A stretch of DNA of 44,082 nucleotides, taken from the NCBI GenBank assembly GCA_029006935.1, contig JAQXGX010000087.1, forward strand, positions 1-44,082, written 5' to 3'. Source of the stretch: Eggerthellales bacterium. Lineage in GTDB: Bacteria; Actinomycetota; Coriobacteriia; Coriobacteriales; Eggerthellaceae. Under the pieces are notes generated by a model, which did no database searches, was not told the origin of the DNA, and saw only the letters and a list, made by a program, of their open reading frames with translations. This document shows positions 3,710 through 10,660 of the stretch, piece by piece. A program made the translations under genes and the position numbers. Position 1 is the first letter of the stretch. Each line of letters opens with the position of its first letter.

Positions 3710-5122
3710 CTATCCGAACAAGCCCATCCATTGCCAATAGGGCACGCTCACCGCCAGGGCGATCAGGCATATGCCCATGTAGACTCCGCTGAAGCGGGCA
3801 GCATCCCCATGGGTGATCATCTGACCGTCCACGGCGGCATATCCCGTCAGGTAGACCGGGTTCTGATACGGGGCGAAGAAGGGGCTGATCATGCAGTACA
3901 TGGCCATTCCCACCACCCACGGATCGATACCCTGGGATTGTGCCAAGGGCACCATGAACACCATGACGATGTTCAGGTAGGCCATTTCGGAAACGATCAC
4001 GAACCGCAGCACCATGGTGCTCACGCCAACGCCCAGCACGAACACGTAGGGGTTTTCGGCCATGCGCTGGAACAACGGACCGCATACCGTCACGATCCAG
4101 TCGTTCACCCCAGCGTGGGAAAACACGCTGCCCAAGCCGAACACCGTGCCCATGAAGATGAGGGACTCCCAGTTCACCTGGGTACGCAGACCGTTCTTCC
4201 CCAGAATGCCGCAGGCAACCGTGGCAACAAGGGCGACCAAGCCCACCACATGGGTGGGCACGCCATGGAGCGGCTCCGCCACCCAAAGGGCAATGGTCAC
4301 CAGAACAATGACGCACATGCGCTTTTCGTCAACGCTCATGGACCCCAGGCGCTGGTCCAAGACCGCCGCAGCATCATCGCGGGGCGCAGAGGGACCCGCC
4401 TGCTCCGAGTCGGGGGCATCGTAGAGGCGCACCAGGGCAACGTAGCTCAGAAGCGTTGCCACCAAGAACCAGGGCAGTGCCGCCACGAACCAGTGAAGCA
4501 GGTCAAAGCGAGCCACCACGTCGGCAGGAAGAAGCCCCACCAGGGCATATCCCAAGATGCTGGCGGAAATGACTGCAGGCCCGATATTGCGCACGCCCGC
4601 CAGCATGGCCAGGAAGAGTCCCTGCATGCGCTTTCCCTGACGCGCGTATCCCATGGCCTCCCCCACGCTCATGGCCACGGGAGCAAGGATGGCGGTCTTT
4701 GCCGACAGGCTGGGAATAAGCGGGCCCAGCACCGTGCCCACCGTCAGGAAGCCCGCGGCCTGCGCCTTGAAGGTTCGGGGAAACAGGCGAAGAATGGCCA
4801 GGGCCATGCGACGCATGAGGCCGCTCACCTTCATGCCCGCGCCCAAGCCGAAAGCACTCACCAGCAGCCACCAGGTAGGCTCGGAAAACGCCGAAAGACC
4901 CACCTCCGTGGGGACGCCGGCAATCACCAGCAAGGCCGCGATCATAAGCAGGCCGGTGGCGTACTCTGGAAGCACCGAGGCCACCCACCACACCACCGCC
5001 CAGACCAGCACGCCCAGGCAGGCGCAGCCTTGGAAGGACAGGCCCACGTCGGCAGCGCTCAGACACGCGCCCACGGCAACACCTGCCGCCACGCCCGCCA
5101 TAGCCACCACCACGCGCCTCAT
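3710..5122 (-). CDS. SLC13/DASS-family anion:Na+ symporter
   Basis: Multi-TM protein with SLSAKTAILAPVAMSVGEAMG and PYQNPVYLTGYAAVDGQMITHGD, typical of DASS permeases. Start trimmed to MRRVVVAMAG. Confidence 0.82.
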   Translation of the reverse strand: MRRVVVAMAGVAAGVAVGACLSAADVGLSFQGCACLGVLVWAVVWWVASVLPEYATGLLMIAALLVIAGVPTEVGLSAFSEPTWWLLVSAFGLGAGMKVSGLMRRMALAILRLFPRTFKAQAAGFLTVGTVLGPLIPSLSAKTAILAPVAMSVGEAMGYARQGKRMQGLFLAMLAGVRNIGPAVISASILGYALVGLLPADVVARFDLLHWFVAALPWFLVATLLSYVALVRLYDAPDSEQAGPSAPRDDAAAVLDQRLGSMSVDEKRMCVIVLVTIALWVAEPLHGVPTHVVGLVALVATVACGILGKNGLRTQVNWESLIFMGTVFGLGSVFSHAGVNDWIVTVCGPLFQRMAENPYVFVLGVGVSTMVLRFVIVSEMAYLNIVMVFMVPLAQSQGIDPWVVGMAMYCMISPFFAPYQNPVYLTGYAAVDGQMITHGDAARFSGVYMGICLIALAVSVPYWQWMGLFG

Positions 5123-5277
5123 AACCGAGCCATCCTTCCCCGCCCCTTGAGCGGACCAATAACCGAAACGCTTTGACCCGCCCATTCTAGCAGTATCCAA
5201 CGGCCTCGCATTATACCGAACATCTGTTCTTGTTACAAGAAGGGCAGTCGCATCCGCCGCCTGCCGCCAAACGCCAG

Positions 5278-5333
5278 AAAAAAATGAAGACCCGGCAGGA
5301 CCGCGGGCACCACGTCCCACGACCCGCCGGGTC
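5278..5333 (-). terminator. Terminator downstream of the VWA gene
   Basis: gacccggc...gccgggtc stem; T-rich tract on the minus strand (aaaaaaaatgaa on +). Confidence 0.6.
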
Positions 5334-5388: not shown

Positions 5389-6240
5389 CTAGCCGCGGGC
5401 AGCGTGGTCCCGCTCGATCTGATCCTTCCATTCCGCCGCCCGGGCTTCCCTGGCCTGTCTGCGGGGAGCGGAGCTCATCTGAACGGTGGCATTGCTCACG
5501 GCGTCGAACATGATGGCGCTGCCGGCGGCATCGCATACGTAGCTGGCAGCGCTCTGGGCATCAATGCCGATGCGCGCCGCCTCCTGCGCGGCGTCCATGT
5601 TGGCCCCCAGGAACATGAAGGTCCACCCCTCTTCCTCCACCGCGCCGATCATGGACTTGACCTGGGCGTAGGTGTAGTGGCTGCTGGAGTTTTCAAAGCC
5701 ATCCGTGGTGATGACAAAGATCAGGTTGGCCGCTTCGAAGCCCTTCGGCTGGCACGCCTGGACCTGGCGCATGTGGGAGATGCTGGTTCCCACCGCATCC
5801 AGCAGCGCCGTGCATCCTCCGGGCTCGTAGGAGTCCGCGGTAAGCTGCGGCACCTGGTCGATGCTGCGGCGGTTGGCCAGCACCCGCACGTGATGGTCGA
5901 ACAGCACCACTGTGACCAGGGTGGGCACGCCGCTTTCCCGGTGCTTGGCAAGCAGCGCGTTGATGCCGCCTATGGTGTCGTCCTCCATGCCGCACATGGA
6001 GCCGCTCTTGTCCACGATCAGCACCAGCTCGGTGTAGTCCGCGGAAGGCGACGACCCACAGGGCTCGCAGCGGGACCAGGGGTCCAGCCACTCCCTTTCC
6101 CGGAAGCCCTGGCCGTCCCAGAAGCTCGAAGGAGCCCCTCCCTCAGCAGGGCGCACGCCGTGGCCCCGGCCGCTCTTGCCAGCCCCCTTGCCCTTGCCCG
6201 CTCCCTGGTCGTTCATCCAGCCGCTCATCCTCTTCATCAT
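5389..6240 (-). CDS. VWA-domain protein
   Basis: Complete MIDAS: ELVLIVDKSGSMCGMEDDTIGGIN (DxSxS), GGCTALLDAVG and FVITTDGFENSS. Start trimmed to MMKRMSGWMND. Confidence 0.88.
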   Translation of the reverse strand: MMKRMSGWMNDQGAGKGKGAGKSGRGHGVRPAEGGAPSSFWDGQGFREREWLDPWSRCEPCGSSPSADYTELVLIVDKSGSMCGMEDDTIGGINALLAKHRESGVPTLVTVVLFDHHVRVLANRRSIDQVPQLTADSYEPGGCTALLDAVGTSISHMRQVQACQPKGFEAANLIFVITTDGFENSSSHYTYAQVKSMIGAVEEEGWTFMFLGANMDAAQEAARIGIDAQSAASYVCDAAGSAIMFDAVSNATVQMSSAPRRQAREARAAEWKDQIERDHAARG

Positions 6241-6328
6241 GGCAAGTCCTTTCGTCCTGGTTCCCTGACCCGGCCCGCGCCGAATCCCCGTTACAGGACC
6301 CACTCTACCCAGCAGCGGGGCGACCGTG

Positions 6329-6345
6329 GTCAACTGGCAGTTGAC
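6329..6345. promoter_or_regulatory. Perfect inverted repeat, candidate operator in a divergent intergenic region
   Basis: GTCAACTG-G-CAGTTGAC, 8-bp arms with 1-nt centre, between VWA (-) and DUF262 (+) genes. Overlaps TTGACA-like hexamers on both strands. Confidence 0.5.
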
Positions 6346-6434
6346 ATCGCCCTTCCCCGGGAAAGGCGCAGCGCCACCACGCCAGCTCACCTGCGGTACA
6401 ATGGGCCGCAACGACTGCGAGCACCGACCACACC

Positions 6435-7583
6435 TTGGAGGCAACCGTGGAAACGCGTCAGGACCCCCTGCTGAGCATTCTGGGCGAACCGTCCGTTCGC
6501 TTCACCCTTCCCGACTACCAGCGCTCCTACTCCTGGGGCCAAAGCCAGTGCCTGGAGCTTTGGCGAGACATCATGCAGTCCGCCCGGGAAAAGAGGCCTC
6601 ACTTCGCCGGCATGTTCATCTGCGCAGATACCGCCGACGCTCCCCAGACCCAGCAGGAGCAGGACGAAGCAGCTGGCGATCCCGCCGCGTGCCCCCCTCG
6701 CGTCCTGGAGATCATAGACGGGCAGCAGCGCCTGACCACCACCTTCCTCATGCTCACGGCCTTTTCCCGCTACGCTCGGGAAAGGGGCCTGAACTTCTAC
6801 GGCGCCGGTCCCGACTACGTGGAAAGCACCTTCCTGACCTGCCCGAACGGTCAAAAGCTCACCCTGTCCCAGGAAGATCGGGAGGTGCTCCTGGCCCTGC
6901 TTGACGGGAAAAGCGCCCAGGAGGCCGCCGAGGGTCTGCCCGCGCACCGCAGGGACCGCAACCGGGTGGTGCAGAACTTCCGCTTCTTCCAGGACCTCAT
7001 GGCCCAGGACGACTTCGACGACGAAGCCTTCTGGCGGGGCATCAACGAGGTCTTCGTCATCCAGATCATTCTGGGCGAAGGAGATGACCCCCAGGAAATC
7101 TTCGAAAGCTTCAACTCCAAGGGCGTGAGCCTGGGCATTGCCGACATGCTCCGCAACCATCTGCTGGTGGCGGAGTCGCTGGAGGAGCAGGAGCGCCTGT
7201 ACAGCACCTACTGGGAGCGGGTTCAGTCCGCCTTTGGCGACGATCCCGGCGGAAAGCGCCTGGGCGCCTGCCTGCGCTCCTGGGTCACCGTGCGCTGCAA
7301 GAACGCCCGAGGCCACAACGAGCGAGAGATGTTCGCCGCCTTCAAGGTCTATGCGGCGGAAAAGTTGGAGGGCCGCACCGAGCTGTGCCTGAAGGAGATG
7401 GTCAACTTCACCAGCATGTGGGCAGAGCGGTACCGCTACCACGCCACCAAGGCCTACGTTTCCTACAACTGGGCCACCCTGGGAGCAACCACCCTGGTCT
7501 CCGACGACCTGCGCCAGAAGGTCAAGGCCAACAAGGACAGCTGGTATTGGAAGCACTACATGAACGTGGACGTGACCAAGTAG
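6435..7583 (+). CDS. DUF262-domain protein (GmrSD/ParB-like DGQQR family), copy 1; no visible DUF1524 HNH domain
   Basis: RFTLPDYQRSYSWGQSQCLELWRDI, EIIDGQQRLTTTFLMLTAF and IFESFNSKGVSLGIADMLRNHLL. Start is TTG 6435 or GTG 6447. Confidence 0.87.
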   Translation: MEATVETRQDPLLSILGEPSVRFTLPDYQRSYSWGQSQCLELWRDIMQSAREKRPHFAGMFICADTADAPQTQQEQDEAAGDPAACPPRVLEIIDGQQRLTTTFLMLTAFSRYARERGLNFYGAGPDYVESTFLTCPNGQKLTLSQEDREVLLALLDGKSAQEAAEGLPAHRRDRNRVVQNFRFFQDLMAQDDFDDEAFWRGINEVFVIQIILGEGDDPQEIFESFNSKGVSLGIADMLRNHLLVAESLEEQERLYSTYWERVQSAFGDDPGGKRLGACLRSWVTVRCKNARGHNEREMFAAFKVYAAEKLEGRTELCLKEMVNFTSMWAERYRYHATKAYVSYNWATLGATTLVSDDLRQKVKANKDSWYWKHYMNVDVTK

Positions 7584-7592
7584 GAGGACCCC

Positions 7593-8639
7593 ATGCAGAC
7601 CAAGCAGATCGCGCTCCTGGACTTCCTGGGACAACCCAAAACCCAGTTCACCATTCCCCCCTTCCAGCGGGTGTACTCCTGGGAGGAAAAGGAGTGCGGG
7701 GACCTGTGGGACGACTGCCTGAAGGCAGGCTGGCGCAACCGCTCCCACTTCATGGGCGTGGTGCTGTACGCCGCCAGCACCGAAGGCTGGCGCTCCTGCC
7801 AGCGGCTGAACGTGATCGACGGCCAGCAGCGCCTGACCACCTTCACCCTGCTGCTCACCGCGCTGTACCACCATCTTCTTGAAACGGGCGAAACCCTTGA
7901 GGGCATGACCGCCGAAGACCTTGCCGCCCGCTTCCTGCTGGTGGACGCAGACGGCCAGCTCCAACCCAAGCTGGTCCTGACCTACCTGGACCGGTTCACC
8001 CTGTTCGAGCTCATCGTGGGTGCGGAGCCCTCCAAAGAGCACTCCCAGCGCATCCTGGACAACTGCGCCTACTTCAAGGGAAGGATGGACCAGCCCGACT
8101 TCGACCTTGCCCAGCTGTGGACGGGCATACGGCAGCTTCTGGTGCTGGACGTTTCCCTTTCCGGCGATGACCGACCCCAGGCCGTGTTCGAGAGCCTGAA
8201 CTCCAAGGGAATGTCCCTGACCACCGGCGACCTTCTGCGCAGCCGCATCCTCCTGTACGATCGGGAGCACCCCGGGGCCGACCTGTTCTCACGCTACTGG
8301 AAGAAGATCTGGAGCATCGGGAACTCCTGCGTGCCCGACGGGGCCAAGAGCGCAGACGGCCCGAGCGTGCTGGTGGAGGCGTGGATTGCCACCAAGTGCC
8401 GCGACATGGCCCTGATCCACGATGAAACCCAGATCTACCCCTTCCTGAAGACCCTGCTTCGGACCACGTACCAAAACGATCTGCCGGCGCTCCTGGCCGA
8501 CCTGGACAGCTTTGCCGACGACTTCAAGCGCAAGGACGCCTTCCGAGAAACCGCCCTGACCTACCGAGCCGAATGGGTGAAGGGCCGCATGGGCACCTCC
8601 ATATCCACCTACCGGCTCTTCGGCACCGCGGGACACTAG
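7593..8639 (+). CDS. DUF262-domain protein (GmrSD/ParB-like DGQQR family), copy 2; no visible DUF1524 HNH domain
   Basis: QFTIPPFQRVYSWEEKECGDLWDD, NVIDGQQRLTTFTLLLTAL and VFESLNSKGMSLTTGDLLRSRIL; paralogous to the preceding CDS, 9-bp gap. Confidence 0.87.
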   Translation: MQTKQIALLDFLGQPKTQFTIPPFQRVYSWEEKECGDLWDDCLKAGWRNRSHFMGVVLYAASTEGWRSCQRLNVIDGQQRLTTFTLLLTALYHHLLETGETLEGMTAEDLAARFLLVDADGQLQPKLVLTYLDRFTLFELIVGAEPSKEHSQRILDNCAYFKGRMDQPDFDLAQLWTGIRQLLVLDVSLSGDDRPQAVFESLNSKGMSLTTGDLLRSRILLYDREHPGADLFSRYWKKIWSIGNSCVPDGAKSADGPSVLVEAWIATKCRDMALIHDETQIYPFLKTLLRTTYQNDLPALLADLDSFADDFKRKDAFRETALTYRAEWVKGRMGTSISTYRLFGTAGH

Positions 8640-9511: not shown

Positions 9512-10660
9512 TTACCCCCTGCCGCCCAGAAGCGGCTGATCGAACTGGAACAGCGTTTCGTTGATGGTGAACACATCGTACACGCCCCGGCTGATCAGGT
9601 ACTCCATGATCACGTCGAAGCGGTTGCTCCGGGAAAGGGCATATCCCGCCCGGGCGAGCAGATCCCGGGTTTGGTCCAGATCAAGCTCCAGGGCCACGGC
9701 CAGGGCCAGCACGGTGCGCTTGGTAGGCACGTAGCTGGCATTGGAGCGAATCTTGCTGAACAGCTGCCGGCTCATGTTGGCGCGTTTGTAGACCTGGGCA
9801 TCGGTCAGGCCCCGAGCGTCGATGAGCGAAAGAAGCGTGCCGGAAAAGCCCTCGTCCAGATTGGAGAGCAGATCCTCCAGATTCCCCGGCAAACTGGCCG
9901 CCGAGCAGGGAGCCGAAAGGGCAGCCTCCTCGTCCATATCCCGGGTCGGAAGCGCATCCGCCATCCAGCTGCCCGCACCGACCCGGACCGCATCCAAATC
10001 CGGGATCTTCTGGAAGGCGTCAGCCTCTGCTTCCAGGGCGAAGTCTTCGGAGCACAGCGGCTGCCGGAAGCGGCGCTGGCTGAAAGCCGCCCTTCTGCGG
10101 GACTCCTCCCGTTCCCGCTCCTCTTCCCGCTCCTGCAGCTGAGCCAGATGGGCCGAAACCCCCTTCCATTCCACCGCCGCTGCGCGGATGGCCTCCTTGC
10201 CGTACACCACCAGGGTCACGTCCGCGTCGGCATAGCGGTCCAGGAACTCCCCCACGGCCCCTCGAGCCGCATCCAGGGAAACCTGCACGGGAACGCCATA
10301 AGCCCCCGCACCCAGCAGGGACAGGGCAACGGACTGTGCCCCCACGGCCGCCGCCTTGCCCAGGGCGCTTTCGTAGGCATGGCGCAGAAGGGCCTCTTCG
10401 CCCTGGTCCCCGCCGCGCCACACCGGCGCCACCGCATGGACCACATGATCGGCAGCCAGGTCAAAGCCGCCAGTCACCACCGCGTCTCCCACGGCGCAGG
10501 GAGCAGCGGCACGGCAGGCCCGGCGCATGCGCCGAAGGCCCGCGGCCCGGGCAACGGCCAGGCCCACGCCGCCATCCGCCACCAGGTCGGAGCTGGCGGC
10601 AACCACCAGGGCGTCGGCGCGTACCCGGGTAATGTCCGCTGCAATTATGCTGAAGGGCAT
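9512..10660 (-). CDS. Macro-domain protein fused to a C-terminal HTH-like domain
   Basis: N-term MPFSIIAADITRVRADALVVAASSDLVADGGVGLAVARAAG...LSLLGAGAYGVP. C-term LTDAQVYKRANMSRQLFSKIRSNASYVPTKRTVLALAVALELDLDQTRDLLARAGYALS...GVYDVFTINETLFQFDQPLLG. Confidence 0.82.
   Translation of the reverse strand: MPFSIIAADITRVRADALVVAASSDLVADGGVGLAVARAAGLRRMRRACRAAAPCAVGDAVVTGGFDLAADHVVHAVAPVWRGGDQGEEALLRHAYESALGKAAAVGAQSVALSLLGAGAYGVPVQVSLDAARGAVGEFLDRYADADVTLVVYGKEAIRAAAVEWKGVSAHLAQLQEREEEREREESRRRAAFSQRRFRQPLCSEDFALEAEADAFQKIPDLDAVRVGAGSWMADALPTRDMDEEAALSAPCSAASLPGNLEDLLSNLDEGFSGTLLSLIDARGLTDAQVYKRANMSRQLFSKIRSNASYVPTKRTVLALAVALELDLDQTRDLLARAGYALSRSNRFDVIMEYLISRGVYDVFTINETLFQFDQPLLGGRG

Follow-up and report, generated by a model that had tools for sequence, protein, structure and literature searches.

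The stretch of DNA analysed here (the window: 44,082 nt, positions 1 to 44,082 of contig JAQXGX010000087.1, GenBank assembly GCA_029006935.1, from an Eggerthellales bacterium of the family Eggerthellaceae) carries two tandem open reading frames on the plus strand, A (6435-7583) and B (7593-8639), with clean stops and a 9-nt gap between them, just as a preliminary description of the sequence had it. Their products are paralogous DUF262 proteins. The lengths of 382 and 348 amino acids given in that description hold for the open frames, A being open for 382 codons from a TTG at 6435; gene A itself is probably shorter, starting at a GTG at 6447 (METRQDPLLSILG), since GGAGG lies 5 nt before this codon and the aligned relatives begin M-x-T-x. 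TTG 6435 adjoins the Shine-Dalgarno sequence of gene A. The Shine-Dalgarno sequence of gene B overlaps the stop codon of A, which suggests translational coupling of the two genes. The features of the pair are as follows.

~6438-6443, plus strand: putative Shine-Dalgarno sequence of gene A, GGAGG-type, ~5 nt 5' of the GTG start
6447-7583, plus strand: gene A (subunit A), DUF262/GmrSD_N and helical C-terminal region, 378 amino acids from the likely GTG start
6717-6731, plus strand: DGQQR of A, nucleoside triphosphate (NTP)-pocket motif, residues 95-99 counted from the TTG, in 28 of 28 A relatives
7101-7124, plus strand: FESFNSKG of A (FxxxN motif)
7419-7454, plus strand: WAERYRYHATKA of A, overlapping the best-conserved ten-residue block of the A family
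~7582-7587, plus strand: putative Shine-Dalgarno sequence of gene B, AGGAGG
7593-8639, plus strand: gene B (subunit B), DUF262/GmrSD_N and helical C-terminal region, ATG start, 348 amino acids
7818-7832, plus strand: DGQQR of B, NTP-pocket motif, in 28 of 28 B-family relatives
8187-8210, plus strand: FESLNSKG of B (FxxxN motif)
8598-8624, plus strand: conserved C-terminal tail of B, here SISTYRLFG, modelled with low confidence in the monomer

In a Pfam scan A and B each match GmrSD_N (DUF262, PF03235) with E ~5e-30, and neither matches GmrSD_C (DUF1524, PF07510); NCBIfam assigns no family to either. The two proteins align along their lengths (29% identity over 354 residues, E=3e-43) and share DGQQRLTT and FES(F/L)NSKG(V/M)SL, as had been noticed in the preliminary description, and in alignments of relatives the QR, DGQQR, and FxxxN motifs are conserved in both subunit families. 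Conservation also extends beyond these motifs. The top-conserved ten-residue block of the A family (331-340, consensus ENYRYHAVKK) lies outside the DUF262 domain, and the segment of A that overlaps it is modelled as the tail end of the final long helix plus a low-confidence stretch beyond. Nearly all members of the B family finish with an ISERKLFGD-type C-terminus, F and G being present in 28 of 28 aligned sequences. The A block and the B tail lie at the last confidently modelled helix or past it, and most of their residues are modelled with low confidence in the monomers; being conserved yet unstructured on their own, they may fold against a partner.

AlphaFold monomer models, built from alignments of 58 (A) and 56 (B) sequences, have a mean predicted local distance difference test score of 86.6 for A and 88.6 for B, with good confidence across the folded core. 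Both show the alpha/beta fold with a DGQQR pocket that marks the DUF262 branch of the ParB/Srx superfamily, followed by a helical bundle and a low-confidence tail, and no HNH or His-Me fold is present in either. The only confident Foldseek matches in the PDB are DndI and SspE (E 1e-8 to 1e-9); B also gives a weak match to BrxU, and none of the matches to ParB, Noc, and Srx has a significant E-value. BLAST alignments of A and B with full-length relatives stop at about residue 310-340, a short way from the C-termini of the two proteins. The lack of DUF1524 from both proteins, on which the preliminary description had remarked, is thus borne out, and a divergent HNH domain in the C-terminal region, for which it had proposed structure prediction, is ruled out by the models together with Foldseek.

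The short proteins have one origin. In a FastTree phylogeny of 72 short proteins and 73 full-length relatives, all 72 short proteins group in a single clade (support 0.994) that takes in none of the full-length ones, and the A-type proteins form a clade within it (support 0.952). Sister to the short clade is a 738-residue DUF262+DUF1524 protein of the same family (L027). The simplest history to be read from this tree would be that the nuclease half was lost a single time, before a duplication. Ratios of nonsynonymous to synonymous substitution (dN/dS) of 0.08-0.37 for both A and B indicate purifying selection. Pairwise distances of A and B are correlated (r=0.854 over 27 pairs, a value reached in none of 5000 permutations), and in the multi-pair genomes G053, G084, and G034 the two members of a locus sit in matching subclades, which is more than shared species history alone explains.

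The two genes are also retained as a unit, in dozens of related gut bacteria. A PF03235 search of 121 family genomes detected adjacent short/short DUF262 pairs in 30; the two genes usually either overlap slightly or are separated by 0-29 nt. Conservation of the pair as a unit, raised as a question in the preliminary description, is borne out, and at the related pair loci tandem short genes, not full-length fusions, are the rule. When the search was widened to 399 genomes of the order, additional pairs came to light both in this family and in a sister one; matches in two more families of the order sit in frames of at least 641 codons. Among named genomes of GTDB, 45 A-family loci comprise 42 pairs, two single A-type genes, and one locus cut by a contig end; their titles are nearly all Eggerthellaceae, Coriobacteriaceae, Coriobacteriia, or genera thereof (Gordonibacter, Adlercreutzia, Ellagibacter, Slackia). 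The 35 non-coriobacterial relatives retrieved are all single proteins of ~450-816 residues, mostly ~660; among those scanned with Pfam, two carry DUF1524 and one of 449 residues does not. Across 397 genomes of Actinomycetota, strong matches outside the family are long frames and the remainder are weak and partial. One subclade is arranged differently, with B preceding A at L042 and L074 and the two genes divergent at L073, but one A-type and one B-type gene are kept each time. Where B comes first, the A-type subunit carries a fused DUF6273 domain at its C-terminus (L042:2184-3935, L074:716-2470). The source genome holds a third DUF262-only gene (G000:C48; L003:1138-2169, L039:2607-3638), of B-type and located at a contig end, so that it is possibly half of a second pair.

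Carriage of the pair by phages or plasmids was considered and rejected, since even the best match in a plasmid, phage, or viral contig falls short of 35% identity and the leading viral ones are long single proteins. Two viral contigs have adjacent DUF262 genes, a short one and then one of ~594 amino acids (L184:4648-7734, L199:4627-7743), the short gene of L184 being DUF262+DUF7834; these may be virus-borne two-gene systems of the TgvAB/GrwAB kind.

Several described systems resemble the pair in part. TgvAB, a GmrSD-like type IV restriction system of the Vibrio island VPI-2, is a two-gene operon in which both DUF262 proteins are reportedly needed, and TgvB contains a DUF1524 nuclease whose active-site residues are essential (PMC11411939). 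GrwAB, a GmrSD-like system of WASA V. cholerae, likewise requires two DUF262 proteins jointly and has an essential DUF1524 in GrwA (PMC12137116). A and B share with both systems the operon of two DUF262 proteins, and as in TgvAB each protein has QR, DGQQR, and FxxxN; however, neither carries the DUF1524 of TgvB or GrwA, and the extra C-terminal domains of GrwB are absent as well. The resemblance of TgvA to GmrSD is confined to DUF262; A and B, by contrast, are sister paralogues over most of their length. The single-chain enzymes GmrSD, BrxU, SspE, and DndI have the same DUF262 fold and helical region, but A and B lack the C-terminal His-Me nuclease half and are two paralogous chains instead of one. 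Of the features of the GmrSD family, the N-terminal DUF262 with its three motifs is present, and DUF1524 is found neither in cis nor as a separate GmrD. The defence systems Menshen, Dazbog, and PD-T4-2 have been reported with DUF262 and without DUF1524 (PMC10952713), as in A and B; in these systems the DUF262 protein has a specific partner gene of its own, a predicted OLD nuclease in Menshen. No such neighbour is seen here, the TetR gene beside part of the loci being the only candidate partner to recur. In the open-access PMC papers searched, no two-DUF262 unit without a nuclease in either subunit was found, nor any report that this lineage has such a pair, and the Coriobacteriia papers listed make no mention of DUF262.

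The one origin of the short proteins, their conserved linkage, the intact NTP motifs, the lack of a nuclease fold, and the purifying selection together point, with a probability of about 0.55, to A and B as an obligate heteromeric NTPase sensor derived from a GmrSD-type enzyme whose nuclease was lost once and whose gene was then duplicated. A joint need for two DUF262 subunits has its precedents in TgvAB (PMC11411939) and GrwAB (PMC12137116). The ancestor would have been a single-chain enzyme from which the C-terminal nuclease half disappeared in the Coriobacteriales before the duplication. The DUF262 domains of A and B may join in a heterodimer that takes the place of the homodimer which BrxU and DndI reportedly form, and the conserved C-terminal tails could help the heterodimer to assemble. 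Such a heterodimer might bind DNA, perhaps modified DNA, and NTP hydrolysis could switch its state; the output would then be binding itself or the recruitment of a partner encoded elsewhere. More tentatively, and with the odds against it, the pair may be a nuclease-free, NTP-gated heteromer that acts by binding DNA and not by cutting it, whether as a clamp or roadblock in the manner of ParB or as a switch that senses modification. On this more tentative reading the pair would represent a restriction-derived system working without a restriction nuclease. The reported two-protein DUF262 systems, TgvAB and GrwAB, retain one nuclease; the lineage of A and B would have kept both sensors and dropped it. 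The pair would isolate the sensor and NTPase step, and the function of a DUF262 pair in the absence of cutting would become directly testable.

Several observations weigh against a sensor heteromer. No effector for the pair was found, and the B-type proteins are paraphyletic under the root used. Nearest neighbours of A and B are concordant in only 14 of 27 pairs, and shared inheritance contributes to the correlation of their distances. Single A-type genes occur (L041, L075, L076, which equals L107, and L077, which equals L103). The annotated ones among 104 neighbour proteins are mostly housekeeping (trigger factor, FKBP, MoxR/AAA, transporters). Concerning the single A-type genes, the four genomes that hold one (G001, G084, G022, G062) all own a pair too, as if B were shared in trans.

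These neighbours bear most directly on the strongest alternative, that A and B have been domesticated as a regulator or serve as a housekeeping NTPase, under a TetR repressor in some lineages, and form no defence system. Of 40 loci, 12 have a related TetR-family gene with shared Cys positions next to the pair, and PADLOC matches among the 104 neighbours are few: mad2 in five, one mad3, and single GajB-, RT-, and AriA-like matches, the commonest, mad2, coinciding with generic methyltransferase matches in Pfam. A location in defence islands is thus unsupported. Against a domesticated role stand the patchy distribution, with many relatives lacking the pair, the several diverged copies per genome in G001, G034, G053, and G084, and the restriction precedent in the family, and on balance this alternative appears possible but doubtful. 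With no typical defence-island signal, a defence role rests on family precedent; on that analogy phage defence would be the likeliest role of the sensor pair, to which the genomic neighbourhoods lend little support.

Less probable again is that the DUF262 (ParB/Srx) fold of A, B, or both is itself the nuclease, which would make the pair a complete restriction enzyme without DUF1524. From a comparison with Osa and plant sulfiredoxin, a GmrSD phylogenomic study connects the NTPase activity of GmrS with a possible nuclease function (PMC4619093), and the pair stands alone, with no third gene conserved beside it. The DUF1524 active-site residues are, however, essential in TgvAB and GrwAB, therefore DUF262 alone is insufficient in those systems, and a catalytic DUF262 is considered unlikely here.

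A DUF1524 (GmrD-like) nuclease encoded elsewhere would fit the finding that GmrS and GmrD can be separate proteins in classical systems (PMC4619093), and a genome search for a free DUF1524 protein had been suggested in the preliminary description. No PF07510 match is present in the source genome, a metagenome-assembled genome estimated to be 98.8% complete, nor in 25 of the 30 pair-carrying genomes of the family. In the other five the match lies within a frame of 581-868 codons that also carries DUF262, and DUF1524 is not enriched with the pair (5/30 pair genomes versus 28/91 others). A DUF1524 partner in trans is thus largely refuted and very improbable, while a nuclease of another family is possible. 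That A and B are decayed or frameshifted remnants, as the missing nuclease half and the full-length sister L027 might suggest, has next to no chance of being right, since the termini conserved across the family, the dN/dS values, and dozens of intact pairs of one monophyletic origin rule out decay and recent frameshift, the latter already argued against in the preliminary description.

In the compared neighbourhoods the TetR gene is the only recurrent neighbour. It lies upstream of the pair, within ~0.35 kb, in 11 of the 12 loci, and is divergent in 10 of these 11. Examples are given below.

L043:5043-5621, L054:5532-6086, L056:7909-8466, others: TetR-family regulators beside the pair

A pair-associated TetR was not found in the source genome, weak evidence since the query was one family member. 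Relative to a genus mate (G001), the block of a VWA gene, A, and B (5389-8639 in the window, L040:7881-11018 in the mate) is inverted with respect to conserved flanks. An invertible switch was considered for this block and rejected, there being no long flanking inverted repeat at its borders. A further difference from this genus mate is an additional anion symporter in the window (3710-5320). Downstream of the pair, at 9512-10660, a macro domain is fused to a helix-turn-helix region.
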